Assembly: GCF_021287045.1 (NCBI RefSeq)
Contig: NZ_JAJTBG010000008.1
Coordinates: forward strand, 1 to 64,000
Source: Oryzomicrobium sp.
Lineage (GTDB): Bacteria > Pseudomonadota > Gammaproteobacteria > Burkholderiales > Rhodocyclaceae
Length of the DNA stretch: 64,000 bases
Direction: 5' to 3'
Shown: in pieces, positions 8,884-55,165 of the stretch
How the letters are laid out: every line of letters begins with the position of its first letter
Numbering within the stretch: the stretch's first letter is position 1
Program-made: the position numbers and the translations under genes
The notes under the pieces: generated by a model
Told to the model about the DNA's origin: nothing
Seen by the model: only the letters and a program-made list of their open reading frames with translations
Databases searched by the model: none

Positions 8884-9627
8884 TCAGGCGGCCGCCGAAG
8901 GCGGCACCATTCCGAGGGGTAGCTGGGGCAGCGGGGCGCGCAGGCCGCCGAGGAGGAAGGGCATCAGCCGCGCCTTGAGCTGGCGGGCCGCCTCGGCCTC
9001 CACGTCGGATTCGGACACCTCGAAGCCATCGATCAGGGAAAGCACGTCGGTCTCGGCGATGGCGTAGGACATGGCGCCGAGCATGAAGTGGAAGCGCCAG
9101 GCGATCTCTTCCCTGGGCACGTCGGGCAGGGCGCGGAAGAGTGCATCCTTGAAGCGGCCCATCACCTCGGCGTACTCGCCGGCAAAGAAGGTGCGGATGA
9201 AGGCGGCCGGCTCGGTCATGGTGCGGCCGAGCAGGCGCAGGAAGGTCATGCCGCCCAGGGCCGGCTCCTCGCCCATCTTGAGCAGGGTGCCGAAGAAGGC
9301 TTCGACGATCAGGGAGGGCTTGAGCGGCTTGCCGCCGGCTTCCGCCTCCAGGGCGTCGAGGACTTGCAGGCGCTCGGCGTTGAGCCAGGAGAGGCGGCGG
9401 CGGAACACTTCGCGCAGCAGGTCTTCCTTGGAGCCGAAGTGGTAATTGACCGCCGCCAGGTTCACCTGGGCCTCGCCGGTGATCATGCGCATCGAGGTGC
9501 CGTCGTAGCCGTGGGCCATGAACAGGCGTTCCGCCACGTCGAGGATGCGCTCGGCGGTATCGCTGCTCTGGGCGGCGGATTTGGCATCGGCGGAATTCGG
9601 GGTGGTCATCTTGGCTACGGCGCTCAT
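8884..9627 (-). CDS. TetR family regulator, PsrA/FadR-like
   Basis: The 247-residue product (ATG 9627; the frame extends upstream through the promoter) has an N-terminal TetR helix-turn-helix: TAERILDVAERLFMAHGYDG then MRMITGEAQVNLAAVNYHFGSK. The VNLAAVNYHFGSK recognition helix and the ligand domain with FLRLLGRTMTEP resemble PsrA of Pseudomonas, a repressor of beta-oxidation genes relieved by long-chain acyl ligands. The gene heads a same-strand run of beta-oxidation genes, and a PsrA-type palindrome lies in its own promoter (9653-9670). Autoregulation and control of the downstream cluster are inferred from this arrangement. Confidence 0.88.
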   Translation of the reverse strand: MSAVAKMTTPNSADAKSAAQSSDTAERILDVAERLFMAHGYDGTSMRMITGEAQVNLAAVNYHFGSKEDLLREVFRRRLSWLNAERLQVLDALEAEAGGKPLKPSLIVEAFFGTLLKMGEEPALGGMTFLRLLGRTMTEPAAFIRTFFAGEYAEVMGRFKDALFRALPDVPREEIAWRFHFMLGAMSYAIAETDVLSLIDGFEVSESDVEAEAARQLKARLMPFLLGGLRAPLPQLPLGMVPPSAAA

Positions 9628-9652
9628 GGGTTGCTGCGTGTCCTGGCTATGA

Positions 9653-9670
9653 TTCAAACGTTCGTTTAAA
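9653..9670. promoter_or_regulatory. PsrA/TetR-type operator upstream of the beta-oxidation cluster
   Basis: The palindrome TTCAAACGTTCGTTTAAA lies 26 bp before the TetR start codon. It fits the published PsrA motif G/C-AAAC-N2-4-GTTT-G/C in its CAAAC-N4-GTTT form. The only mismatch is the last base. No second copy was seen before fadE or fadL, which suggests one controlled promoter at the head of the cluster. Confidence 0.65.
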
Positions 9671-9729
9671 TCATAGGGAAGATTATTCCCCGCTGCAAGC
9701 ACCCGGCATCATTTTTCTTTTGCCCAACG

Positions 9730-9753
9730 AAAACGCCCCGCACAGGCGGGGCG
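9730..9753 (-). terminator. Rho-independent terminator of the response-regulator transcript
   Basis: CGCCCCGC (9734-9741) pairs with GCGGGGCG (9746-9753) around a 4-nt loop. On the minus strand it is followed by TTTT (9733-9730). It ends transcription of the gene at 9808-10602 and insulates the TetR promoter. Confidence 0.85.
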
Positions 9754-9807
9754 TCGGAGAAGGCTGGCAGCGGGACGGAACGCCCGCCGCCGCGCGAGTA
9801 CACCGCG

Positions 9808-10602
9808 TCAGGCGGCCATCACCTGTTCGATCAGGCGGCGCACGGTGGCCGGCTCGAAGGGCTTGTCGCACACCGCCGAGACGCCGGCCCGCTCCACCGC
9901 CGCGAGCCGGCCCTGGTCCTGCTCGCTGGTGACCATCAGCACCGGCACCGCGTTCTGCCAGCTCTGGGTGCGGATGTACTCGGTGAGGGCCTTGCCGTCC
10001 ATTTCCGGCATGTTGTAGTCGGTGACCACCAGGTCCACCATGGTCTCGGCCAACAGGCCGATGGCCTCGCGGCCGTTCTCGGCCTCCAGGATGCGCTCGA
10101 TGCCCAGGCTTTCGAGCATGCGGCGGATGTGGCGGCGGGCCATGGGGCTGTCGTCCACCAGCAGCACCCGCAGGGTTTCCACGTCAAGGCTCAACACCTC
10201 GTGGTGGGAGTCGAAACTGAGCACGGCGCGCAGGGCCCGGGCCAGGCGCTCGTCGTCGAAGGGTTTTTCCAGGATGCAGCAGGCGCCCGACTGACGCACC
10301 GGGTCCAGCACCTGGGGCCGGGTTTCGCTGGAAATCAGCACGAAGGGCACCGTCTCCAGCCCCTCCTCGGCCCGCATCGCCGCCACCAGGGCGGTGCCGG
10401 TGCCATCCGGCAGATAGAGGCTGCTCACCACCACCGTGGGCCGCGCCTCACGCAGGGCGGCCAGGGTGGCCTCTTGCGAGGCGAACACATCGACCCGGCT
10501 GGCGCCGGCCCGTTGCAGCATCTGCTCCACCAGGCGGGCCTGGGTCGCCGACGGCTCCACCAGATAAACGGAAACGCCGGCAAACGACGCAACCTGAACC
10601 AT
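9808..10602 (-). CDS. Response regulator with two receiver domains, the first degenerate
   Basis: 264 residues, two CheY-like receiver domains and no output domain. Domain 2 (about residues 145-264) is complete: acidic pair in VLLVDDSPMARRH, phospho-acceptor Asp195 in VVTDYNMPEMDG, and Lys in CDKPF. Domain 1 (about 9-128) keeps the fold and the Lys (LEKPF). It has Glu-Pro in place of the acidic pair (VYLVEPSAT) and Ser-Ser at 60-61 where the phosphorylated Asp should be (VVVSSLYLP), so it cannot be phosphorylated normally. A strong Shine-Dalgarno (GGAGGAG) precedes the start. The partner kinase is not evident nearby; the neighbouring genes are a TAXI protein upstream and the beta-oxidation cluster downstream. 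Confidence 0.88.
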   Translation of the reverse strand: MVQVASFAGVSVYLVEPSATQARLVEQMLQRAGASRVDVFASQEATLAALREARPTVVVSSLYLPDGTGTALVAAMRAEEGLETVPFVLISSETRPQVLDPVRQSGACCILEKPFDDERLARALRAVLSFDSHHEVLSLDVETLRVLLVDDSPMARRHIRRMLESLGIERILEAENGREAIGLLAETMVDLVVTDYNMPEMDGKALTEYIRTQSWQNAVPVLMVTSEQDQGRLAAVERAGVSAVCDKPFEPATVRRLIEQVMAA

Positions 10603-43088: not shown

Positions 43089-45059
<1,971 letters not shown>

Positions 45060-45077: not shown

Positions 45078-45117
45078 GGGCCGTTAGCTCAGTCGGTTAG
45101 AGCAGGGGACTCATAAT
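45078..45117 (+). pseudogene. 5' half of a CAU-anticodon tRNA gene, interrupted by the element
   Basis: The acceptor strand GGGCCGT, D-arm and 5' anticodon strand GGGGA are followed by the loop ACTCATAAT, after which similarity stops. The missing 37 nt lie at 53688-53724. Rejoined, the halves give a 77-nt tRNA with consistent pairing (anticodon stem GGGGA/TCCCT, T-stem GCAGG/CCTGC, encoded CCA) apart from a G1-U72 wobble. C4-G69 and C5-G68 favour tRNA-Ile2 (lysidine type) over elongator tRNA-Met. Confidence 0.88.
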
Positions 45118-45132
45118 AGAACGGGCTAAACT

Positions 45133-45222
45133 GCAAGAGCTTGCGAAAAACGTAGCAGTAGCAAGCACTTGCAGCGAGCACGCAAAGCGCAGAGAATCGA
45201 CGGTGTAACCAAAATGTACGCC
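45133..45222. repeat. Left-end repeats: candidate integrase/excisionase arm sites
   Basis: GCAAG-AG-CTTGC (45133-45144) and GCAAG-CA-CTTGC (45161-45172) are 12-bp inverted repeats spaced 28 bp apart. ATGTACGCC (45214-45222) follows. A related CAAG-TC-CTTG occurs at 53605-53614, and ATGTACGC recurs near both ends. They fill the 119 bp between the left core and the intact tRNA gene, which otherwise has no coding content. Confidence 0.5.
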
Positions 45223-45236
45223 GCGCAAACAGTTTC

Positions 45237-45313
45237 GGGCCTATAGCTCAGTTGGTCAGAGCAGGCGACTCATAATCGCTTGGTCGCAGGTTCAAGTCCT
45301 GCTGGGCCCACCA
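45237..45313 (+). tRNA. tRNA with CAU anticodon, tRNA-Ile2-like, carried by the element
   Basis: A complete 77-nt cloverleaf: acceptor GGGCCTA/TGGGCCC, D-arm GCTC/GAGC, anticodon stem GGCGA/TCGCT with loop CTCATAA, T-arm GCAGG-TTCAAGT-CCTGC, discriminator A and encoded CCA. The anticodon arm and variable loop match E. coli tRNA-Ile2, whose C34 is turned into lysidine by TilS to read AUA. It differs from the split host tRNA at 11 of 77 positions, including paired compensatory changes, so it is a distinct functional-looking gene, not a duplicate. Elongator Met is the alternative identity. Confidence 0.9.
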
Positions 45314-45316
45314 TCC

Positions 45317-45349
45317 AAAGCCCCGCGCCGCAAGGCTCCGGGGCTTTTT
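45317..45349 (+). terminator. Terminator after the element's tRNA gene
   Basis: AAAGCCCCG (45317-45325) pairs with CGGGGCTTT (45339-45347), followed by a T-run to 45349. It would end transcripts entering from rpoD after the replacement tRNA. Confidence 0.85.
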
Positions 45350-45388
45350 CTTTGCCTGCCACCCAGAGTCGAGGGTCGGTTACACGGC

Positions 45389-45396
45389 GCGTACAT
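45389..45396 (-). repeat. Inverted copy of the ATGTACGC end repeat
   Basis: GCGTACAT, the reverse complement of ATGTACGC, lies 280 bp from the left core between the tRNA terminator and the XRE gene. Nothing else is evident in the 140-bp stretch 45350-45489. Confidence 0.4.
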
Positions 45397-45489
45397 GCCG
45401 CCCTTAGGCCACGCTGCGAATGTGGTCGCCGCCACCCTATTGAGCCGGGGCCATTAGCGGCCTGTGCCGCCCCACAGCGCCACGGATTC

Positions 45490-45744
45490 CTACCCACGTT
45501 GCCGCAGGTACTCTTTTTCCGCCTCCTGCACCAAATCCGCAGCAGAAACCCCCAGCGCTTGCCCCAATCCGATCAATGTCGTGATGGTAGGCTGCCTGAC
45601 GCCTCGCTCAAGGCGCGATACGAACGTCCGATCAACATCTGCACGGTGGGCAAGCTCTTCCTGAGAGATGTTCCGATCCGATCTATATCGTCGTAGAACC
45701 TCCCCAAAAATCTTGCCAATGTCTGTTATTTCCGTGCTCGTCAT
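45490..45744 (-). CDS. XRE-family helix-turn-helix repressor
   Basis: 84 residues, a single Cro/CI-type domain: FGEVLRRYRSDRNISQEELAHRADVDRTFVSRLERGVRQPTITTLIGLGQALGVS. It ends shortly after, so it lacks a sensor or cleavage domain. It is divergent from the zinc-ribbon protein gene, and three CCTATAG(G) boxes lie between them, so it most likely represses that promoter and its own. Confidence 0.88.
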   Translation of the reverse strand: MTSTEITDIGKIFGEVLRRYRSDRNISQEELAHRADVDRTFVSRLERGVRQPTITTLIGLGQALGVSAADLVQEAEKEYLRQRG

Positions 45745-45770
45745 AGCCCACGAGCATGGTTTTCATGTAG

Positions 45771-45807
45771 CCTATAGTCCACGGCCTATAGGCACGGTGC
45801 CTATAGG
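45771..45807. promoter_or_regulatory. Triple operator for the XRE repressor
   Basis: CCTATAG (45771-45777) and two perfect palindromes CCTATAGG (45785-45792 and 45800-45807) occur at 14-15 bp spacing in the 80-bp divergent gap, like operators of small phage repressors. They end 17 bp before the zinc-ribbon protein ATG. Confidence 0.7.
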
Positions 45808-45824
45808 CTTCAGCAGAGGATGCT

Positions 45825-46355
45825 ATGGCGCTGATCAAATGTCATGAATGCGGGACTGAGGTAAGCTCGAAAGCGAAGGCTTGCCCCTCCTGTGGCGCGA
45901 AGCCAAAAAGAAAATCGTCGATTCTGAAATGGGGTGCGGGGATATTCGTCGCCTTCATAGCCTATGGCGCGTACGTGGATTCAAACATGACGCCAGAACA
46001 GAAGGCGGCCAGAGCTGAGGAACGCGCAGCCCGAGAAGCGGAAGACTCAAAACAGGCAGCCGAGAAAAAGGCTCGCGACGATGAAAAAGCGTGCAGCAAT
46101 CAGACGACGGCGTTCGTTATGTCGCAATCGTTTGTCAAACAGCGCCTGAAAGCACCGGCTAGCGCGGACTTCCCCTATGTAACAGACGATGGCGTAAAGA
46201 CCAGCTATCGCGGAGATTGCACCCATGAAGTTCTGGCCTACGTTGATTCGCAGAACAGCTTTGGGGCCAAGATCAGGACGAAGTATTACGTCAAGCTGAA
46301 GAACCAGAAAGGAACTGACGATTGGCGACTACTCGACATCAAGATTAGCGAGTAG
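45825..46355 (+). CDS. Zinc-ribbon membrane protein of unknown function
   Basis: 176 residues. An N-terminal zinc ribbon MALIKCHECGTEVSSKAKAC-PSC (Cys6, Cys9, Cys20, Cys23) is joined by a basic linker to one membrane helix (ILKWGAGIFVAFIAYGAYV, about 33-51), then a charged coiled segment (about 56-88) and a C-terminal domain with two Cys (ACSNQTT..., YRGDCTHEV) ending in beta-strand-rich VDSQNSFGAKIRTKYYVKL. The ribbon should face the cytoplasm and the C-terminal domain the periplasm. It is the first gene under the triple operator; function not recognised. Confidence 0.8.
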   Translation: MALIKCHECGTEVSSKAKACPSCGAKPKRKSSILKWGAGIFVAFIAYGAYVDSNMTPEQKAARAEERAAREAEDSKQAAEKKARDDEKACSNQTTAFVMSQSFVKQRLKAPASADFPYVTDDGVKTSYRGDCTHEVLAYVDSQNSFGAKIRTKYYVKLKNQKGTDDWRLLDIKISE

Positions 46356-46463
46356 CCAGTACGTCGGACACGCCACACGACCTGGCAGCCAGCAAGGCGC
46401 AGTTATTGGCAGCGCCAGCGCTCCGCGCGAAAATGGCGGGCATCCCTACAACGAGTCTGATAA

Positions 46464-46982
46464 ATGCCGATGTCCTCAACCCAGATCGGAGCAATAGGCG
46501 AAAACCTGCTGGTCAATGCAGTGATGAAGGCCAGCGACGGGCGCTTGTCGCCGTTCCAACCCCTTGCCGACGATGACGGGCTGGACGTGCTTTTCTTCGA
46601 CAAGGTGACGGGCAACTCGGTCGCCATCCAGTTGAAGTGCCGCACCGTGTCCATCCGCAAGCGCAACTCCGAGGAGCGCGGCAACGTCGTCCATTTCCAA
46701 GTCCGGCAAGCCACGTTCAACGAGGCACGGCGCGCCTACCTTGTCGCCGCTCTGTTTAACGAGGAGCTGACTCACTTTGTAGCCACATGGTTCATACCGA
46801 TGGCGCTGCTGCCCGAGGTGGGCAAGGACATATCCGGGAAATGGGTCATTCGTCCCAGCAAGGCGGAAGGTAGCGCTGACCGCTACACTCCATATCGGTG
46901 CCTGACCGCCGAGGAACTGGCGAACCGAATCATTGCCGTGTGCGAGGGTAAGCAAGCCGCGCCCGGTGCGCCGGACTGTTGA
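46464..46982 (+). CDS. PD-(D/E)XK nuclease-like protein
   Basis: 172 residues. IGAIGENLLVNAVMKA (Glu in the first helix), then DDDGLDVLFFDKVTG (Asp of the core strand) and VAIQLKCRT (Q-x-K) reproduce the E...D...QxK pattern of restriction-like nucleases such as DUF4365/mrr-type proteins. The rest reads as an alpha/beta domain with a helical C-terminus. It follows the zinc-ribbon gene by 108 bp on the same strand, so both may form the cargo module of the element. Catalysis and target are unproven. Confidence 0.65.
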   Translation: MPMSSTQIGAIGENLLVNAVMKASDGRLSPFQPLADDDGLDVLFFDKVTGNSVAIQLKCRTVSIRKRNSEERGNVVHFQVRQATFNEARRAYLVAALFNEELTHFVATWFIPMALLPEVGKDISGKWVIRPSKAEGSADRYTPYRCLTAEELANRIIAVCEGKQAAPGAPDC

Positions 46983-46989
46983 TTTTCGG

Positions 46990-47217
46990 TCAGCGCAACA
47001 AGCCCCAGCCAGCAGTCCCGGCGCGTGCGGTGCCGTCGTCGATCCAGTTCATCAGGCAGTGCAACACCACAGGGCCATCAACCGGGCACATGCGGCCGTC
47101 CGCAATGGCAGCGCCGAGCGTGTCGCTGACCCAGCCGCGCATCTCGTCGCTGGCACCTTGCGAGCGCTCCAGCTTCTTGAGTCGGACAAGCATGCCCTTG
47201 GCGCTGCTGATACTCAC
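46990..47217 (-). CDS. Small protein of unknown function
   Basis: 75 residues from GTG 47217, last gene of the minus-strand run in the element. It begins with a basic amphipathic helix (AKGMLVRLKKLERSQ) and contains MRGWVSDTLGAAIADGR and a single Cys pair (CPVDGPVVLHC). No family is recognised. Its start is 4 nt after the preceding stop, supporting it as a real coupled gene. Confidence 0.55.
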   Translation of the reverse strand: MSISSAKGMLVRLKKLERSQGASDEMRGWVSDTLGAAIADGRMCPVDGPVVLHCLMNWIDDGTARAGTAGWGLLR

Positions 47218-47221
47218 GTGA

Positions 47222-47404
47222 TTACTCCCACGACTCGCGCAGCGCCTCGCCCAGCTTGAAAGCGCGGAGCAGGTTCAAGTCGGACATGGTTTGCCGGTCT
47301 GCGTGCGCCTCGATGCGGCGCTGTTGAATCTGTTGCAGGTCGCTGGGCGTTACCGTGTGCTTCACGGGCGTGTTCTCGCGCGGGTCGGTGTGCAGGTTCT
47401 TCAT
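47222..47404 (-). CDS. Small protein of unknown function
   Basis: 60 residues, mostly charged, with no membrane segment (DLQQIQQRRIEAHADRQTMSD, LLRAFKLGEALRESWE, both helical). The start overlaps the previous stop in ATGA form, which is the main reason to accept it. Not recognised. Confidence 0.5.
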   Translation of the reverse strand: MKNLHTDPRENTPVKHTVTPSDLQQIQQRRIEAHADRQTMSDLNLLRAFKLGEALRESWE

Positions 47405-47616
47405 TGCAGCGCCCCCTTACGGCATGCCCGCGCGCTTACCAGTGAGAGCAGTTGGGCAGCTTCCACGCGCACCGCAGGGTCAGGGCAGTCGCGGATCACC
47501 TCAAGGCAGGTCTGCACAATCAGCTTGAGGCTGGCTTTGCGCTGCTGGGGCGTATCCCACATGGGCACCGTTCGCCAACCGTGCTGCGGAATGCTGTCGG
47601 TGTCGAAAATGCTCAT
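47401..47616 (-). CDS. Small protein of unknown function
   Basis: 71 residues. The N-terminus (FDTDSIPQHGWRTVPMWDTPQQRKA) is followed by a helical part LKLIVQTCLEVIRDCPDPAVRVEAAQLLSLVSA, which reads like a small HEAT/ARM-type helical hairpin. It overlaps both neighbours by 4 nt, so it is part of a tightly coupled operon. Not recognised. Confidence 0.55.
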   Translation of the reverse strand: MSIFDTDSIPQHGWRTVPMWDTPQQRKASLKLIVQTCLEVIRDCPDPAVRVEAAQLLSLVSARACRKGALQ

Positions 47617-48086
47617 TGGTTCTTTTCCTCCAGCGCGATAAGGCGCGCTTCCAATTCATCAACGGCACGGATGCCCGCAACCGACTGGATGCAGTCGATC
47701 AGGAGTTTCCCCGTGTCAGGGTCTATCGCACCCTCGCTGACACCCTTCAGAATCTGCCCAGCCTGCTCCGATAGCGGACGATCTTGCGACAATTCAAACT
47801 CCACCGTAGGCGCACGCGAGCGCAATGGGGGCTGGGCGCGTTGCAGCAACAGGTTCATCGCGGTCATGTCGCCCGCCTTCGCTGCATCAACGAGGACTTG
47901 CAGCAGCTCGGCCTTGTTCTCATCGAAGGCGCGGGCCACGAAGTTGGTTTTGTTCCGCGCGCCTTTTGGACGGCCAGCCGGGTTGCCGCTCACCCCGGGC
48001 TTGAACCCGCCACGGCGCGGCGGCTCCTGCGCAGCAGGGGAGTCCTGCCACGTCTTGAGCCATTCAGGCGATTGGGTTTCGGACAC
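47613..48086 (-). CDS. DUF5681-like phage/element protein
   Basis: 157 residues from GTG 48086, chosen because GGAGG lies 8 nt upstream. FKPGVSGNPAGRPKGARNKTN (about 30-50) is the basic GRPKGxRNK segment of DUF5681 proteins found in prophages and islands, often near terminase or replication genes. The rest is helical and acidic. A DNA-binding role is plausible from the basic motif but not shown. Confidence 0.65.
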   Translation of the reverse strand: MSETQSPEWLKTWQDSPAAQEPPRRGGFKPGVSGNPAGRPKGARNKTNFVARAFDENKAELLQVLVDAAKAGDMTAMNLLLQRAQPPLRSRAPTVEFELSQDRPLSEQAGQILKGVSEGAIDPDTGKLLIDCIQSVAGIRAVDELEARLIALEEKNQ

Positions 48087-48132
48087 CTTGATTACCTCCG
48101 CTTGATGTTGTTGATAGCAGGAGCCAACAAGG

Positions 48133-48849
48133 TCACTGGCCAATGTCCTTGAGGACGAAGGCTTGCTCGGCTGCCGTCTTCGCTTCACGAAGAGCCTTGG
48201 CCTTGTGCGGGGGCGCGCCAACTGCACGAGCCATTGACTCAAACACCAGACCCGCGCGTTCTTCGATCATTTGCTTCGCGCCCTTCATAGCCTTGAGGCG
48301 CTGCGCCAGTTCAGGCGAGTTGCGTTCGTGGTAGTGACGAACATAGACCGCTTGGAAATTCGCATCGAGGCCGGACAGGTAAGGCGGAGACCCCAGCACT
48401 GCGCCAAGCGTGACATGATCGGCAGCATCCAGCGCCTGCTGGATAAAAGCGTGGCGCTTCTCGGTCGGCATGTCCCGCACGAAGGCGCGAATCTCACCGG
48501 CGATGCTGGCCGCTGCTTTCGATTCAATGGGCGTAGTGAGCTGCTGCTCCAGCGCCACGATTGCCTTGTCCAAGTTCGAGCGGGTCACGTCAAAGCTCTT
48601 GGTGATGCGGGCGAGGTGCTTCTGTGCAAAGTCATCCGTGTGGATGATCTGCTGCGCTTCGTTCCAGGTGGGATTCGCGGCAGCCGCCTCCTTCGCCGCC
48701 AAAACAGCACGCACGCCTTCATAGGCGGTGCTGAACGCGGTCATGGTCGGCGCGAGATACGGCGCGGTCTGCTCGTCAAAGCCGTCAATGCTCTTCACGT
48801 TCTCGGGGTGAAGCGAGGGCGAAATTCGGTGATCCACGTTGTCTGTCAT
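48133..48849 (-). CDS. Element protein of unknown function, helical
   Basis: 238 residues with AAGGAG 8 nt before the ATG. It is predicted helical and Ala/Glu/Gln-rich in the middle (FDVTRSNLDKAIVALEQQL, AASIAGEIRAFVRDMPTEKRHAFIQQAL), with no membrane helix, Cys cluster or nucleotide motif. It is first in the minus-strand run 48849-46990. Position and composition suggest a phage-type structural or scaffold protein, or a regulator of replication; I do not recognise the family. Confidence 0.6.
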   Translation of the reverse strand: MTDNVDHRISPSLHPENVKSIDGFDEQTAPYLAPTMTAFSTAYEGVRAVLAAKEAAAANPTWNEAQQIIHTDDFAQKHLARITKSFDVTRSNLDKAIVALEQQLTTPIESKAAASIAGEIRAFVRDMPTEKRHAFIQQALDAADHVTLGAVLGSPPYLSGLDANFQAVYVRHYHERNSPELAQRLKAMKGAKQMIEERAGLVFESMARAVGAPPHKAKALREAKTAAEQAFVLKDIGQ

Positions 48850-49030
48850 GGTGCAAACTCCTTGATAAAAGGCGCGTAACTGGTACGCATTGCATACACG
48901 CTAGGACTCTCTGCCGCAGGTCCGCAAGCAAAAGCAGCGCAAAAACAACGTCTTACAGTTCATTAAAAAACAGAGAACAAGGTCTTCCATGTAATTGGGT
49001 CGGCATGTCAGCACGAGCGAAGTGGCGGCA

Positions 49031-49146
49031 GCGCTGCCCCCTTGCTCCCCTTCGTACCCCTTGCCCAAAACGGCCACATACACTTACTGGACTAGCTTTC
49101 GCATAAGAAATAGCGAGGGGGCTAAAGGGTGCGAAGGGGGCAGCGC
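49031..49146. other. Repeat-rich noncoding region, candidate replication origin of the element
   Basis: A perfect 13-bp inverted pair (GCGCTGCCCCCTT 49031-49043, complement 49134-49146) encloses further copies of GCGARGGGGGC: direct at 49113-49122 and 49131-49141, inverted at 49036-49045. A second inverted pair is CCCCTTCGTACCC (49047-49059) with GGGTGCGAAGGGG (49127-49139). It ends 7 bp from the primase-helicase stop. The remainder of the 303-bp gap 48850-49152 is AT-richer (GTTCATTAAAAAACAG near 48958). Iterons beside a replication gene are typical of P4-like and plasmid origins. Confidence 0.45.
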
Positions 49147-49152
49147 GTCGGT

Positions 49153-51534
49153 TCATGTGCGGCACAGTTCGCGCTCAATCTCAAGCGTGCTGGCCTGCTT
49201 CCACCGCTGTGGGTTCCGCAGTACCCAGACCTTCTGCTTTGGCCTACCGCCCAGCGTCAGCGGCTTAGCGATTCGCTCAATACCCGCCTTCGCTGCAATA
49301 GGTGCCAGCAGCTTCCACCGCCTGCTAGCTTCGGGCGACAAGCTAGGCGGCTCGCCGTAGATGAACTGGAATAAGTGATCCGCCAGAACAAGATCGCGGG
49401 TGCAGGACGCAACCAGTTCAGCGGCTCGCTCATCCTCGTGCGTCATGCTGGTAGCGACGACCGATTGCTTGGCCTCGTTCATCACGGCGCGCTCGCCGGG
49501 GTTGAACGCCGATATGTCACGCCTCAGCAGAAGCTCGCGCACCGACGCGACAAACGCCGAATCTCCCAGCGCGCGGTAGAGCTTCGAGTAATAGTCCGCT
49601 CCCCGTGGTTCGCTCGGGTTGCGGATTACGTTCCAGCGGCGGTCGTCCGCGTGCAGCGGTAGCGCTGACTCGTAGTTGGAGAACAGCAGCCAGCGGCAGC
49701 AATTCACTTCGCTATGCTGGATGCCGTACTTGGCATTGATGAAGCGCTCCGAGGTCGTCACCATCGACTTGAGCTTTTCGGAGTGCTGCCACCGCTCGCC
49801 CGTGCCGCCCTCGTTAATCTCATCGACGACCGCCAGCAGCTTGCGCGATAGCTGACCGTTGAAGCCGTTCTGGAAAGTGCCTTTCAGGTCGTAGTCCAGC
49901 GCCACATGCCCAGACCAGACGCACGCCATCAGCGACGCGAGCCAGTTGCGGCCCACGCCCTGCGACGTGGCGATCATCAGATAGTGCGCGTGCGGCAGTT
50001 CGCCCGGCTTCTGCTCAATGTGTGCAAGCCAATCAAGGAAGCGCTCGCGCTCCGCCTCGTCGGGCACCAGATAGCGGACATGATCGACAAACGGCTGCAC
50101 CCGTGCCTGCCAGTCGGCGGGCGGGTTGTGGGGTTTCGGCTTCCACAGGTTCATGGCTGGCCGACCGTCAGGGCTGGCGCAAAACTCACCCGCGCGAGGG
50201 TCGAACGTCAGCGTATAGACAACGATGCGCCGTTCATCCTGCTGCCAGATATTGAACGTCGGCACCCACTTCATTTCGCCCGTCTTCTTGTCCTCAATCT
50301 CCGTCCTGTTGTGCGCTAGCAGGGTGCCCATGACATTCGGCGGCACTCGTATGGCGGGCATGTCGCGGAAGGTGACAAGGGGCTTCTCCGCAGCCACGAA
50401 CACCAGCGACTGAAGCATCATGTCCAGCTTCATTGACGGCGCGCGCGTGGCGCTCAGGTCAATTTCGCCTTCGCCAATCTGCTTGAAGCGAAAACGCTGC
50501 TTCTCTCTGCTCTCCGCAAGTGCCGCGTCAATGGCAGCGTTGAGCGCTGGCATCTGCGCCTTGATAGCGTCGGCCCGCTGCTGCTCAATGGCCTGCCTTC
50601 CGCGTATCACGCTCAACGTGCGGTTGATGTAACGATCATCCTTGACTGCCTTTTCGCGCTTGCCCAGCGCTGAGTCCCGGAAGCACCGCCTCACCTGCTC
50701 ATTGCTCTCGCTGTAGAAGGCAATGATGCTCAACAGCGCCAAATCGGCTTCGCTCTGCGATGTGTAGTCCTCTTGCCACTGCCCCTGCCACAGCTTGCAG
50801 AACTTCTCCGCGTTGCTGGCGCTGACCGCGCGGAGCAAGACATGCCAGTCGTCGGCGTCTTCCGGTAGCTCTACCATTCCCGACACTGCGGGCTGCTCGT
50901 GCCCGATGGAGTCCAGGAGCGCGGCGAGCTGCTGCGGGCGGGCTGCAATGGGACGGTCAAGCACGACATCGCCGGTACAGATGATGAAACGCTCCTGCGA
51001 ATAAACCTCTACGCCGTCTTTGCGCCTGCCCTTGCCTATGTTCCCTTCGATCCAGATATGGAAGCCCCTGCCCGACTGCGAGCGCTCGGTGTAGCTGTCG
51101 AAGACGCGGATGCCGTTGTGGTATCCCTCGACGACCTGCGGCGCGGTGCCGTCCTTCACGTCAAGGTCAATGCAAGCGAACGGGTCGGACTCATGCAGCA
51201 TGTATCCGACATACAGACCCTTGGCGGCGGCTGCTCGGCATGCCGTGTCAAAGTCCGTCCATGTGCTGGGGTCGGTGCTGCTCGCGGCGCGACCGTCAGC
51301 GGTCAGCGGGCGCTTGTCAGTACCAGCCAGCACCCATTGCGGGCGGTCGCGTAGCGCCGCCGGTATGTGTCCCCAGCGCTCGGGCTGCGGGGCGGCTGGG
51401 GCCACGTTTGCATGCTGGTCGCCGCTAGGGTACTGGCACGCTGGCGGTGCGGCCTGTACGCCGTTTTGCGCGGGCTGCATTCCATCTTGCATTTCGCATG
51501 ACGGCTGCCCTACGCTTTTTTCGTGTTGATTCAT
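49153..51534 (-). CDS. Primase-polymerase / SF3-type helicase replication protein
   Basis: 793 residues. The N-terminal archaeo-eukaryotic primase domain has the metal Asp pair in FACIDLDVKDG (Asp123, Asp125) and the SGRGFHIW motif (His159). A central linker precedes a DUF5906-like SF3 helicase: the P-loop region reads IATSQGVGRNWLASLM, Walker B is LLAVVDEINE, then WLLFSNYE and the Arg finger DDRRWNVI. The usual Walker A Lys-Ser/Thr is Arg-Asn here. The protein would prime and unwind the element's own origin. Start at ATG 51534 has AGGAGG 8 nt upstream. Confidence 0.85.
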   Translation of the reverse strand: MNQHEKSVGQPSCEMQDGMQPAQNGVQAAPPACQYPSGDQHANVAPAAPQPERWGHIPAALRDRPQWVLAGTDKRPLTADGRAASSTDPSTWTDFDTACRAAAAKGLYVGYMLHESDPFACIDLDVKDGTAPQVVEGYHNGIRVFDSYTERSQSGRGFHIWIEGNIGKGRRKDGVEVYSQERFIICTGDVVLDRPIAARPQQLAALLDSIGHEQPAVSGMVELPEDADDWHVLLRAVSASNAEKFCKLWQGQWQEDYTSQSEADLALLSIIAFYSESNEQVRRCFRDSALGKREKAVKDDRYINRTLSVIRGRQAIEQQRADAIKAQMPALNAAIDAALAESREKQRFRFKQIGEGEIDLSATRAPSMKLDMMLQSLVFVAAEKPLVTFRDMPAIRVPPNVMGTLLAHNRTEIEDKKTGEMKWVPTFNIWQQDERRIVVYTLTFDPRAGEFCASPDGRPAMNLWKPKPHNPPADWQARVQPFVDHVRYLVPDEAERERFLDWLAHIEQKPGELPHAHYLMIATSQGVGRNWLASLMACVWSGHVALDYDLKGTFQNGFNGQLSRKLLAVVDEINEGGTGERWQHSEKLKSMVTTSERFINAKYGIQHSEVNCCRWLLFSNYESALPLHADDRRWNVIRNPSEPRGADYYSKLYRALGDSAFVASVRELLLRRDISAFNPGERAVMNEAKQSVVATSMTHEDERAAELVASCTRDLVLADHLFQFIYGEPPSLSPEASRRWKLLAPIAAKAGIERIAKPLTLGGRPKQKVWVLRNPQRWKQASTLEIERELCRT

Positions 51535-51549
51535 ATGCAGTACCTCCTG

Positions 51550-51582
51550 AGCGGCAGCGGTGTGCAGACCCTGCCGCTTTTT
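51550..51582 (+). terminator. Plus-strand terminator-like hairpin between xis and the primase gene
   Basis: AGCGGCAG (51550-51557) pairs with CTGCCGCT (51571-51578), followed by TTTTT (51578-51582) on the plus strand. Genes here run on the minus strand, so it would stop antisense transcripts; on the minus strand the same hairpin lies just upstream of the primase AGGAGG and may modulate its translation. Confidence 0.5.
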
Positions 51583-51687
51583 CTTTGGTGGCGTACTGTG
51601 CAGTTACTCGACGCGCCGGGACTGGCGCTAAAGGGTTGGCACGCTTCTAAAAATTCGCTGCTGAACATGGTTGCTGGCGTTGCATGT

Positions 51688-51912
51688 TCAGTACGATTGC
51701 AAGCCTTGGTGGCTGGTGCCAGTGCGGGTGCGCTCGTCCAAGTAGGCAAGCAAGTCCGACTCGGCATAGCGCACCAGTGCGCCCACCTTGCGGAACTTCG
51801 GCCCCTTCTTCTCGTAGCGCCAAATCTCTAGGGTGTTCTTCTTCACGCCGAGCAGTTCGGCAGCCTGCGCGGTGTTGAGCAGCTTGATCGCTGTGGAGGT
51901 AGCAGTAGTCAT
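51688..51912 (-). CDS. AlpA/excisionase-like helix-turn-helix protein
   Basis: 74 residues. IKLLNTAQAAELLGVKKNTLEIWRYEKKGPKFRKVGALVRYAESDLLAYLDER is a MerR-like HTH_17 domain as in AlpA and many recombination directionality factors. It probably bends the element ends and favours excision, or activates the integrase. It lies between int and the primase gene on the same strand with GAGGA upstream of the ATG. Confidence 0.85.
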   Translation of the reverse strand: MTTATSTAIKLLNTAQAAELLGVKKNTLEIWRYEKKGPKFRKVGALVRYAESDLLAYLDERTRTGTSHQGLQSY

Positions 51913-52075
51913 GACAAGTCCTCATCGACTTGCCTTACCGCATGCGGGGAGTTAGTTGGCGCAACGGCAAGGCATGGCTTGTCGTCTGGTTCGCGCTGCC
52001 CACTGACGAAATTCGGGCGTGCTAGGCGCTTCTGAAGTGCCTAGCCAGGGGGCGTTGCACCCCCTAGGCTTTTTT
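51913..52075 (+). ncRNA. Structured region upstream of xis, candidate small RNA or leader
   Basis: Nested inverted repeats: GACAAG (51913-51918) with CTTGTC (51978-51983), CTTGCC (51929-51934) with GGCAAG (51966-51971), and palindrome CCGCATGCGG (51938-51947). They are followed by a long hairpin 52021-52045 (11-bp stem) and a terminator 52039-52075. On the plus strand it could be a small RNA ending in T6; on the minus strand the first stems fold the xis leader with its GAGGA and AUG near the base. No open frame is convincing. Function is inference only. Confidence 0.35.
52039..52075 (+). terminator. Terminator mutually exclusive with the preceding hairpin
   Basis: GCCTA (52039-52043) pairs with TAGGC (52065-52069) and GGGGG with CCCCC (52048-52052 with 52060-52064), then TTTTTT (52070-52075). 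The stem shares 52039-52045 with the alternative hairpin 52021-52045, so only one can form at a time, as in attenuators. Confidence 0.6.
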
Positions 52076-52116
52076 ATATGCTATGGCGCTTAGTGCTTGA
52101 TAGCAAACACTTTTTT

Positions 52117-52132
52117 ATCGGGCTAGCCCGAT
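52117..52132. repeat. 16-bp perfect palindrome at the integrase 3' end
   Basis: ATCGGGCTAGCCCGAT directly after the int stop, flanked by T and A runs. It may be part of the int transcript end or a binding site; no strand-specific T-tract fits minus-strand termination. Confidence 0.4.
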
Positions 52133-52134
52133 TT

Positions 52135-53445
52135 TCAGGCCCGCATTGGGATCACATTTTCACCCTTGGCAGCGTCCTTGGCTATCTGCCCCTGCTGCAC
52201 TATCCACGCGCTGATCTTCTGCATAGCGGGCAGCAGCACGGCGGGGTCGGGGTTGTTCGCGTAGGAGGTGCCATGCACGTCGCTAGCAAGGTGGTTGAGC
52301 AACTGCCGCCGCTGGTCACTATCAACGCCGACGATCTGCGCAATGTCCTCGAACGTGCGACGCATAGCGTGCGGGTGCAGGTGCGTTCCCGCCGTCTCTG
52401 ACACTGTCTCAAACATCGCTCGCGGGTCGAAGATGTACCCCTTCTTGCCTCGCATGGCAGGGAAGACGAAGTTGTTACCCTTGAGGCGATTCTCATAGCG
52501 ACGGGTCAGCAGCGTGTGCAGTGCGTCGCTGAGCGGCAGGGTCACAGGGTTGTGGTTCTTGGTCACCGCGAGGTGAAATGTGGGCACCTTGCCATCTAGC
52601 TTCACCCTGTCCCATGTCAGTTCGCGCGCTTCCGATACACGGGTGCCGGTCAGCAACATGAACGCGATAAGGTCAGCGCTGACACAGGTTGTGGTGATAT
52701 TCCGCTCGGGGTCGCTGTGCTGCTCCAGCAGCACCCACACCGCGCCTATCTTGTCTCGCGGAACGCGGGTGGCGCGGGGCTTCTCCTTGTTCCACTGCGC
52801 CATGCCCCCTTGCTTGAACATCTGCGACACAGGGTTGATCGGCAGGATCGGATAAGAGCCGTCAGCGGTGGCGTTCTTCTCGCGTGCCCAATTGAGCAGG
52901 GCGCGAAGGTTGCGGAATGCCTGATTGGTCTGCACGGGTGCGGTCTTGGACAGTTCGCGGAAGCGCTTGATGCAAGCATCTCGGCTGATACTTGCCACGG
53001 GTTCATCTGCCCAGTCGGAGAAGGTGCCTTCCACACAGCGCCGAATGTCGGCCTTGCTGCTGGGTCGTAGCGGGCCGTTTTTCGTGCGCTTGTGCTCGAT
53101 GTAGTCCTCCATCACTTCGCGGAGCGTTTCGGACTGCGCGGCGACCTTCTTTTTCTCAACCTGCGGGTCAAGCCCGTCCAGCATTTCCAGCCGCTTCACT
53201 TGGGCACGCTTACGCGCCTCGTCACAGCTCAGCAGCTCAGCGGAACCGAGGGTGAAGCGCCTGTCCTTTCCTGACCCATTCACGCGCCCGCGAACGATGT
53301 AGCTCTTGGCACCTGCGGCAGTGATGCGCAGCCCCAGCCCTTGAGTCTCGGTATCCCAATAGAAGGCTTGATCCTTGTCGGTGGGCGCTGGTAGCGCCTT
53401 CACTTTGAGGTTCGTAAATTTGAATCTGGTTTGTAGAATGCTCAT
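52135..53445 (-). CDS. int: P4-type tyrosine integrase
   Basis: 436 residues. An N-terminal arm-binding domain (FKFTNLKVKALPAPTDKDQAFYWDTETQGLGLRIT) begins with the DUF4102-like segment; the core-binding domain spans about 115-205. Catalytic residues are Arg in LTGTRVSEARELTW, Lys in VTKNHN, HxxR in HPHAMRRTFEDIA, and Tyr in HGTSYANNPD. It recombines attP with the tRNA anticodon-loop site. It is transcribed away from the right end, which lies 233 bp upstream of its start; that gap holds repeats described separately. Confidence 0.95.
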   Translation of the reverse strand: MSILQTRFKFTNLKVKALPAPTDKDQAFYWDTETQGLGLRITAAGAKSYIVRGRVNGSGKDRRFTLGSAELLSCDEARKRAQVKRLEMLDGLDPQVEKKKVAAQSETLREVMEDYIEHKRTKNGPLRPSSKADIRRCVEGTFSDWADEPVASISRDACIKRFRELSKTAPVQTNQAFRNLRALLNWAREKNATADGSYPILPINPVSQMFKQGGMAQWNKEKPRATRVPRDKIGAVWVLLEQHSDPERNITTTCVSADLIAFMLLTGTRVSEARELTWDRVKLDGKVPTFHLAVTKNHNPVTLPLSDALHTLLTRRYENRLKGNNFVFPAMRGKKGYIFDPRAMFETVSETAGTHLHPHAMRRTFEDIAQIVGVDSDQRRQLLNHLASDVHGTSYANNPDPAVLLPAMQKISAWIVQQGQIAKDAAKGENVIPMRA

Positions 53446-53539
53446 ATCGGCGTGCTCCTGCTAGTGGAACGTCGGTCACGCGCCCGGGAGTGTTCGCAGC
53501 ACTCGCCGGGCGCACTCGTTACAAGCTCTCGGAAGAGCC

Positions 53540-53640
53540 ATGTACGCACAATGTACGCGACGCAGGTAGAAGCACGCAATAGCGCATGGTACTAAATAAA
53601 ACGCCAAGTCCTTGATTTATATAGGAATGCAGGCGTACAT
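53540..53640. repeat. Right-end repeats: candidate integrase arm sites
   Basis: ATGTACGC at 53540-53547 and 53551-53558 (direct, 11-bp period, one helical turn) and its inverse GGCGTACAT at 53632-53640, with CAAG-TC-CTTG at 53605-53614. The same octamer occurs at 45214-45221 and inverted at 45389-45396, so five copies lie within 310 bp of the two junctions. The int promoter presumably also lies here. Confidence 0.55.
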
Positions 53641-53678
53641 AAAAGCGGGTAAAGCATGGTAAAATCGCTGTCCGCACA

Positions 53679-53724
53679 ACTCATAATCCCTTGGTCGCAG
53701 GTTCGAGCCCTGCACGGCCTACCA
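53679..53724 (+). pseudogene. 3' half of the split CAU tRNA gene (right junction)
   Basis: Starts with the shared core ACTCATAAT (53679-53687), then the 3' anticodon strand, variable loop, T-arm GCAGG-TTCGAGC-CCTGC, acceptor strand ACGGCCT, A and CCA. Bases just before the core (TCCGCACA) do not pair as an anticodon stem, so no tRNA is rebuilt at this end. Pairs only with the half at 45078-45117. Confidence 0.88.
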
Positions 53725-54199: not shown

Positions 54200-55165
54200 A
54201 TGCCCGTCTCGATGCCCCCCACCTCGCCCAGCTCCGCCGCTCACTACGTCGGCCGCTTCGCCCCCTCCCCCACCGGGCCGCTGCACTTTGGCTCTCTGGT
54301 GGCAGCCGTGGGCAGCTACCTGGACGCCCGCGCCCACGGCGGGCAATGGCTGCTGCGCATCGAGGACGTGGATACGCCCCGGGTGGTGCCCGGCGCCAGG
54401 GACGGCATCCTGCGCACCCTGGAATCCTTCGGTTTCGCCTGGGACGGCCTGGTGCGCAACCAGAGCGATCCGGAGCGGCGTTCCGCCTACCAGGCCGCCC
54501 TGGACCGGCTGACCGCCGCCGGCCTGGCCTACCCCTGCGCCTGCACGCGCCGCGCCATCGCCGCCGCATCCCCCCACGCCTCGGTGGATGGCGCCCCGGT
54601 CTATCCGGGTACCTGCCGCGACCATCCGCCGGCGGGGCCCGGCCCCTTCGCCTGGCGGCTGCGCCTGCCCGCGGCGGGCAGCCCGGACGATGCCATCTCG
54701 GTGGCCGACCGCCTGCAAGGCGCCATCGCCCAGCACCTGGCCGAGGATGTGGGCGACTTCGTGCTCAAGCGCGCCGACGGGGTCTACACCTACCAGCTGG
54801 CGGTGGTGGTGGACGATGCCGACCAGGGCGTCACCCACGTGGTGCGCGGCGCCGACCTGATCGACTCGACCCCGCGCCAGGTGGCCCTGCAACGGGCCCT
54901 GCGCCTGCCCACGCCGTCCTACCTGCACCTGCCGGTGGCGGCCAACGCCGCCGGGGAAAAGCTCTCCAAGCAGACCCTGGCCCCGGCCCTGCCGCAGTCA
55001 CGCGAACTAGCCCAGGAGTTGGCCCGGGCCCTGGCCTTTCTCGGCCAACAGCCGCCGGCGGAACTGGCCGCCGCCCCCCTGGACGCGCTGTGGGCCTGGG
55101 CCCACGAACACTGGTCCCTGGCCCGGGTGCCGGCCCGGCGCAGCATCGTGCTGGCCGACGATTGA
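54200..55165 (+). CDS. gluQ: Glutamyl-Q tRNA(Asp) synthetase
   Basis: 321 residues from ATG 54200, with TAAAAT 10-15 bp upstream possibly a -10. The catalytic core YVGRFAPSPTGPLHFGSLVAAVGSYLDAR (HIGH-like), a zinc-type pair in YPCACTRRAI, and KLSKQTLAPAL (KMSKS-like). It lacks the anticodon-binding domain of GltX, as expected. It attaches glutamate to queuosine in tRNA-Asp. An in-frame ATG four codons later is an alternative start. Confidence 0.93.
   Translation: MPVSMPPTSPSSAAHYVGRFAPSPTGPLHFGSLVAAVGSYLDARAHGGQWLLRIEDVDTPRVVPGARDGILRTLESFGFAWDGLVRNQSDPERRSAYQAALDRLTAAGLAYPCACTRRAIAAASPHASVDGAPVYPGTCRDHPPAGPGPFAWRLRLPAAGSPDDAISVADRLQGAIAQHLAEDVGDFVLKRADGVYTYQLAVVVDDADQGVTHVVRGADLIDSTPRQVALQRALRLPTPSYLHLPVAANAAGEKLSKQTLAPALPQSRELAQELARALAFLGQQPPAELAAAPLDALWAWAHEHWSLARVPARRSIVLADD

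Follow-up and report, generated by a model that had tools for sequence, protein, structure and literature searches.

How does a bacterium cope when an integrated element has cut its isoleucine transfer RNA (tRNA) gene in two? This question is raised by a 64-kb stretch of DNA from Oryzomicrobium sp. (contig NZ_JAJTBG010000008.1, positions 1 to 64,000; hereafter the window), in which an 8.57-kb element interrupts the host tRNA-Ile2(CAU) gene behind rpoD, the break lying in the anticodon loop. Very probably, an integrase split the sole tRNA-Ile2 gene of this host, and a complete gene borne by the element replaced it.

The 5′ half of the host gene occupies positions 45078-45117 and the 3′ half together with the core positions 53679-53724, both on the forward strand and with stems pairing between them. 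The exact overlap of the two halves is the 9-bp core ACTCATAAT, which resides at 45109-45117 on the left and, in identical form, at 53679-53687 on the right. Beyond this core the left half continues into an unrelated spacer. Rejoined, the halves gave a 77-nt sequence called as a CAU tRNA by ARAGORN. Neither ARAGORN nor Rfam at gathering level detected a tRNA at either junction, and the sole tRNA found by these tools in the window was a complete gene inside the element (45237-45313).

This inner gene (forward strand; Rfam tRNA 72.8 bits) is the proposed replacement. It is separated from the left core by a spacer of 119 bp (45118-45236) and is followed by a terminator-like 9-bp inverted repeat and T-rich DNA (45317-45347, forward strand) resembling the DNA 3′ of the rpoD-linked gene of G091; a terminator scan gave no call there, the loop being longer than the scan permits. 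Rejoined host gene and inner gene are identical at 66 of 77 positions. The label assigned by the tool was Met(CAU), but we take the inner gene to be a tRNA-Ile2 because of its anticodon loop, CTCATAA, and its likeness to known Ile2 genes. Lysidine, made at C34 via TilS, has its role in tRNA-Ile2. The whole genome contains 48 tRNA matches to RF00005. ARAGORN, applied to loci spanning all of them, yielded three CAU tRNAs, namely the initiator Met, the elongator Met and the inner gene; with the linear option of the program, names were also obtained for tRNAs on short stretches (leucine, serine and others), none of them CAU. A second intact tRNA-Ile2 was not found in this draft genome (98.66% complete, 26 contigs). 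Most of an earlier note, made from the letters of the window, was thereby confirmed. It had described, with correct coordinates, two halves that share a core and rejoin into a proper tRNA, a target rebuilt at neither end, and a complete but different CAU tRNA (66 of 77 identical, a correct figure) inside the left end; the other intact copy that would have spoken against its reading did not turn up. Its placing of the inner gene close to the left end was right as well, except that the spacing is 119 bp and not 120.

Are the halves really parts of one gene? In each of the eight carrier loci with both ends (G186, G563 and G638 were excluded, as an end is missing or doubtful), the host halves paired at 12 of 12 acceptor and anticodon-stem positions, G-U being allowed. 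As only two of 40,320 left-right shuffles did as well, the split-gene pattern exceeds chance; two of the hosts have identical stems.

Sequence comparison indicates that the tRNA follows the element, whereas the halves belong to the host. Azoarcus taiwanensis (G033) contains an element whose integrase is 91% identical to that of the window. Inner tRNA and spacer of the two elements differ at 1 of 77 and 2 of 119 positions, respectively, while the host halves differ at 4 of 40 (5′) and 7 of 46 (3′). A more distant group with 67-77% identical integrases comprises UBA2250 (L103), Eoetvoesiella caeni (L105) and BP4.bin85 (L106). In these three loci and in G563, which contributes a left end, the element tRNA-Ile2 is identical at 79 of 79 positions, whereas the split host genes differ. 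Since the tRNA is nearly constant across hosts and the host halves vary, we regard it as cargo of the element. When 14 genomes were searched with a pattern for 3′ parts of tRNA-Ile2 and their loci examined by ARAGORN, the sole complete gene with the CTCATAAT loop was located inside or behind the extra 5′ half in all nine carriers (G000, G033, G057, G186, G259, G413, G508, G563 and G638). The same layout of half and complete gene recurs with a core-to-core spacing of 159-160 bp in elements of the window type and of 116-117 bp in a second type, called B; single other spacings were 154 bp in a viral contig (L131) and a much shorter one in L067. In window-type elements with both ends (the window, L103, L105 and L106), only the short core is common with the tRNA at each end.

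For the course of events, we propose that the integrase would recombine the attachment site of the element (attP) with the 9-bp anticodon-loop sequence ACTCATAAT of the host's single tRNA-Ile2(CAU), whose CTCATAA loop is conserved. Since a tRNA 3′ half is missing from attP, integration would leave the host gene split at both junctions. The inner gene, situated 119 bp inside the left end on the side of rpoD and the host promoter and on the same strand, would then take over as the AUA-decoding isoleucine tRNA, being read from its own or from the host promoter. We infer that the inner tRNA is expressed and charged, that a cell without it would die and that the element is still mobile. Loss of the element other than by clean excision could be costly to the cell.

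What stands at rpoD in relatives? We compared 20 stretches, nearly all of them best matches to the query and, as they were chosen by similarity, not a measure of frequency. Eighteen hold rpoD, and each of these has a complete CAU tRNA just 3′ of it, with an extra 5′ half in three (L053, L060 and L067). Seven rpoD-linked tRNA-Ile2 genes without a 5′ half, from other genera of the family, were identical to the inner tRNA at 72-74 of 77 positions and to the rejoined host gene at 64-70; the tRNA-Ile2 of G047, on a contig that does not include rpoD, matched the inner tRNA at 75 of 77. Such close rpoD-linked genes may point to a possible source of the element's tRNA copy. The only other genome of the same genus among the 199 listed (G042) has its tRNA-Ile2 just behind rpoD, without the element. 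An insert of 254 bp breaks up the anticodon loop of this gene (L195, G042:C1:3033002-3033255), whose joined exons give a CAU tRNA identical to the rejoined host gene at 69 and to the inner tRNA at 66 of 77 positions. The earlier note had raised the case of the inner tRNA standing at rpoD in relatives that lack the element. This was found in a loose sense, in the form of the seven family genes, but not as an identical copy. The claim of whole-gene replacement itself was upheld, the sole intact Ile2 being borne by the element and the tRNA following the element, not the host.

The same tRNA gene is also occupied by islands with other integrases. In type B, the integrase gene lies directly behind the inner tRNA. 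Members are the islands of G057 (28.6 kb), G508 (19.7 kb) and G413 (19.1 kb) and the viral contig of L147, and their integrases are 27-32% identical to that of the window over 69-80 residues. PADLOC was run on ten chosen proteins. Seven proteins of the G057 island gave BrxC (in part), PglX, BrxH, PglZ and BrxA of the bacteriophage exclusion (BREX) system and a SIR2-HerA pair, and two of the G508 island were assigned to PDC-S06 and to the type IIG restriction enzymes (L187 and L188 for these two islands). A single protein was scanned from the G413 island and had no match. A third integrase, 21% identical to that of the window, is encoded by a 35.9-kb viral contig with tail genes (G1048). A right half lies beside the integrase gene at the low end of this contig (L242), and a half with a complete tRNA is present in L131, which is probably the other end of the G1048 element, since L131 stops about 110 bases beyond. 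All three of these dissimilar integrases are located at tRNA-Ile2.

Two observations concern the cores in viral contigs. By eye, the G1048 halves (L131, L242) share 15 bp, CCGACTCATAATCGG, as against 9 bp in the window. In L138 and L145, a GACTCATAAT core without a tRNA half precedes the core of a complete CAU tRNA by 111-113 bp; these cores are possibly attP sites of free phages that use the same strategy.

In A. taiwanensis, elements of both types seem to meet. Its window-type right junction abuts a tRNA 3′ half of type B, which does not fit as the host 3′ half (L185, G033:C100, 4925-5721) and has the same letters as that of G057. It is followed by the start of a type-B integrase gene, cut short as judged by eye, and another contig contains a right end of type B together with the host 3′ half that fits. 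The only complete Ile2 seen in this genome is the window-type tRNA. The array would thus read rpoD, host 5′ half, window-type element, B tRNA 3′ half, B island and host 3′ half, an order that had to be deduced since the contigs are unjoined in the assembly. A newcomer seems to have split the spare tRNA of an earlier island, so that two islands are stacked, which suggests that the loop of a spare tRNA itself serves as an attachment site.

Further 3′ halves were noticed at two other loci. In E. caeni, another 3′ half of tRNA-Ile2 lies about 1 kb past the right junction (L105, 8671); it is slightly altered and is perhaps the trace of an earlier element. In L067 (G186, 9324-10139), a 5′ half is followed by a gap of 23 bp, a complete tRNA-Ile2 and, about 0.7 kb downstream, a further 3′ half that by eye fits the left half poorly; this layout looks like the remnant of another arrangement.

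Of 349 genomes of the order, 24 encode a relative of the B integrase, and ARAGORN called an adjacent tRNA in 14 of the 25 loci concerned. When these 14 loci and G057 were searched for a 5′ tRNA fragment within 400 bp upstream, G508, G413 and G057 were positive; the other 12 had none, save chance matches of 8-9 bases and, at L205, the complete gene for tRNA-Lys next door. Among these 12 is G540, where the island at tRNA-Ile2 is of the canonical kind and an identical 3′ half lies at a distance of 22.6 kb. Given such restoring relatives, the replacing arrangement may descend from restoring ancestors.

Some points weigh against replacement by the element. A second Ile2 gene could lie in an assembly gap of the draft genome, and a sigma-70 scan revealed no promoter-like site for the inner tRNA, nor for the host gene. 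Because the rpoD-linked genes of the family are so similar to it, the inner gene could be mistaken for a native one from the window alone; the contrast offered by G042 (69 versus 66 of 77) is small, and we infer rather than observe that the window copy is mobile at present. The inner tRNA might thus be the native rpoD-linked gene and the upstream half an old duplicate or scar, as the seven family genes, nearer to the inner than to the rejoined gene, would have it. We consider this very unlikely, since the two halves rejoin with full stem complementarity, the gene of the same genus is slightly nearer to the joined halves, A. taiwanensis has almost the same spacer and inner tRNA, and four other hosts with differing halves have a constant tRNA.

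There is an equally slim chance that an ordinary restoring island was followed by a second event, a tandem insertion or deletion, which destroyed the restored gene. Tandem islands do occur at this site, as in A. taiwanensis, where a B-type integrase gene lies past the window-type right junction, and the canonical island of G540 contains a relative of the B integrase; on the other hand, only the short core is common with the tRNA at each end in the window, L103, L105 and L106, and the layout of 159-160 bp recurs in several hosts. A spare tRNA might finally be kept mainly for defence or translation, for instance against tRNA-cutting defences, and lie beside the junction incidentally. Such roles have been proposed for phage tRNAs (PMC10865867), but in the carriers seen the tRNA is of the same isotype as the split gene and, with two types of integrase, always lies at a set position next to the junction, for which reason we give this explanation little credence. 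Two other candidates were discarded: a canonical tRNA-restoring island, as the attP-borne 3′ part is absent and the left half enters the spacer directly after the core, and a group I intron within the window, where Rfam at gathering level gave only a tRNA.

An intron may be present in G042. Its insert matched Rfam Intron_gpI with an E-value of 6.9e-6 and 31.7 bits, which is below the gathering score of 50 and covers part of the model; this permissive search was made for L195, while the window was searched at gathering level. The intron of Azoarcus sp. BH72 is reportedly located in the anticodon loop, and the insert of G042 interrupts the loop that the element uses. BH72 belongs to the same family and harbors a group I intron in a pre-tRNA-Ile, a tRNA gene of the same kind (PMC3984707). 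The BH72 intron, however, is a self-splicing RNA of a few hundred nucleotides and the window contains an 8.57-kb integrase element. As intron and integrase elements share one loop, an intron would hide the attachment core.

Together, these loci permit a wider reading, which we put forward tentatively and hold to be rather less probable than not. The tRNA-Ile2 loop might be a contested docking site, where islands, anti-phage defence islands among them, hold an essential tRNA hostage. The complete tRNA would make any loss other than clean excision lethal, an addiction without a toxin. Newcomers would split the previous spare tRNA and bring their own, leading to serial foreign replacement, and a group I intron, by splitting the core, would shield the site. 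Since the shared core is the conserved CTCATAA loop, one element could enter hosts with diverged tRNAs.

Several published systems come near to this arrangement. tRNA-dependent lysogeny was described and tested in actinobacteriophages (Guerrero-Bustamante & Hatfull 2024; PMC10865867), a precedent that the earlier note does not mention. The Gordonia phages OneUp and Mollymur use tRNA-Ile2-CAT with cores of 10 and 9 bp, respectively, common cores in Table 2 measure 8-17 bp, and the authors deem the strategy plausible elsewhere, citing the Lj965 prophage of Lactobacillus johnsonii (PMC10865867). The window element shares with these phages a tyrosine integrase, a short core (9 bp here), a target tRNA that is not rebuilt and a tRNA of the same isotype aboard; its bacterial attachment site, attB, likewise appears to lie in a host tRNA gene (junctions in tRNA-Ile2). 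It differs in that the actinobacteriophages were tested by tRNA deletion, whereas the present 8.57-kb element, in which no virion gene was recognised, is known from its sequence alone, and in that its host belongs to the family of Azoarcus and not to the actinobacteria. Because there was no virion or lysis match, the element would work like lysogeny without being lysogeny. In S. meliloti, phage-related sequences replace tRNA-Leu(UAG) (PMC11476347). There, too, an element tRNA similar to those of other taxa takes the place of an inactivated host tRNA, but the sequences are alphaproteobacterial and another tRNA is affected (PMC11476347). Prophages not using the tRNA-dependent strategy have also been reported (PMC12429752).

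Islander-type islands resemble the element in their tyrosine integrase, their tRNA target and the tRNA fragment marking one end, and in about half of those listed the attachment site is anticodon-centred; in contrast to the window element, they restore the target from an attP-borne fragment (PMC4383910). Phage-inducible chromosomal islands (PICIs) have been found in tRNA-Ile2, with a suggested addiction via damage to the displaced fragment (PMC10111431). The element is like PICI or P4-like satellites in size, in its integrase, AlpA-like and primase genes, in the tRNA-Ile2 site and in the idea of addiction, and unlike PICIs in replacing a whole gene rather than damaging a fragment, no helper or packaging gene having been identified in it. 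Judged by titles and beginnings of abstracts, the papers found on tRNA-dependent lysogeny include none on islands or satellites of Betaproteobacteria, and the other searches made brought up nothing nearer.

Thus the mechanism is known in kind; added here are the host group, the types of element, the defence genes carried and what appears to be serial replacement. A satellite-sized element without a recognised virion gene and islands of the same order, two of them with BREX or restriction genes, extend the strategy. This suggests that actinobacteriophages are not alone in replacing an essential tRNA gene as a whole. In the order of Azoarcus, small islands as well as defence islands seem to do so by means of dissimilar integrases, and repeatedly at the same tRNA. 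A bacterium's sole tRNA-Ile2 can be foreign property, and programs that find islands by a restored tRNA and its fragment may place such elements wrongly or overlook them. If the addiction reading is true, it would explain the retention of defence islands without a toxin-antitoxin pair.

To what extent the arrangement recurs was followed by surveys. The ACTCATAA site was absent from nine loci of related integrases with at most 46% identity, which reach at most 1.5 kb beyond the gene; the target therefore seems specific to the close group. These loci derive from eight of the 11 genomes with an integrase match, out of 297, and include a second match in G259. A double-core pattern with core-to-core distances of about 110-170 bp, outside which shorter layouts such as L067 fall, matched six of 399 genomes of the order, which we take to be Burkholderiales. 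Five of the six have a tRNA half plus a complete CAU tRNA; the match in G491 was dismissed as chance. The reversed pattern, used as a control, matched one genome of this sample. In the class sample, five of 369 genomes matched, our own among them. Three of the other four lack a tRNA-Ile2 half; in the fourth, G811, a degraded tRNA-like copy comes after a complete CAU tRNA. As the reversed control matched six genomes here, nothing stands out beyond the order. Among viral contigs the pattern gave 37 stretches, of which L131 and L147 were accepted. In L138, L145 and L144, a complete CAU tRNA is preceded by a core that lacks a tRNA half, and the remaining stretches were judged by eye to be chance matches or other layouts.

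The target tRNA is directly preceded by rpoD (43089-45059, forward strand; NCBIfam NF004208, 938.6 bits versus a cut-off of 555), and past the right junction gluQRS follows (54200-55165, forward strand; NF004314). Within the element, an Xre-like helix-turn-helix (HTH) repressor gene (45490-45744, reverse strand; PF01381, phrog_5823) is succeeded on the forward strand by genes for a zinc-ribbon protein to which no function was assigned (45825-46355; PF13240, phrog_13160) and for a 172-aa protein negative in the family scans (46464-46982). All other genes lie on the reverse strand. Three short open reading frames (ORFs) encode 75 aa (46990-47217), 60 aa (47222-47404) and 71 aa (47401-47616), which are 50%, 74% and 51% identical to their counterparts in the A. 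taiwanensis element, respectively. They are followed by genes for a DUF5681 protein (47613-48242; PF18932), a 238-aa protein without a family match (48133-48849; 66% identical to its A. taiwanensis counterpart), a primase/helicase (49153-51534; DUF5906, PHROG DNA primase), an excisionase-like HTH protein (51688-51912; HTH_17, phrog_66), presumably AlpA-like, and the tyrosine integrase with its arm-binding domain (52135-53445; PF00589, PF13356).

None of the ten ORFs scanned, all except the 75-aa one, matched a family of virion or lysis proteins, several having no match at all, and no packaging gene was recognised among the scanned proteins. No relative of the integrase was found in viral contigs. 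In phage records, the integrase matched 41 and the primase 725 entries, all with less than 60% identity. The element does contain a module of integrase, excisionase-like (AlpA-like) regulator and primase, which we take to be a mark of P4-like or PICI satellites. It resembles a satellite or small island more than a phage. Its right end (53619-53678) exhibits repeated GTAAA-type motifs, which were spotted by eye with seven right ends side by side and are candidate arm sites of the integrase.

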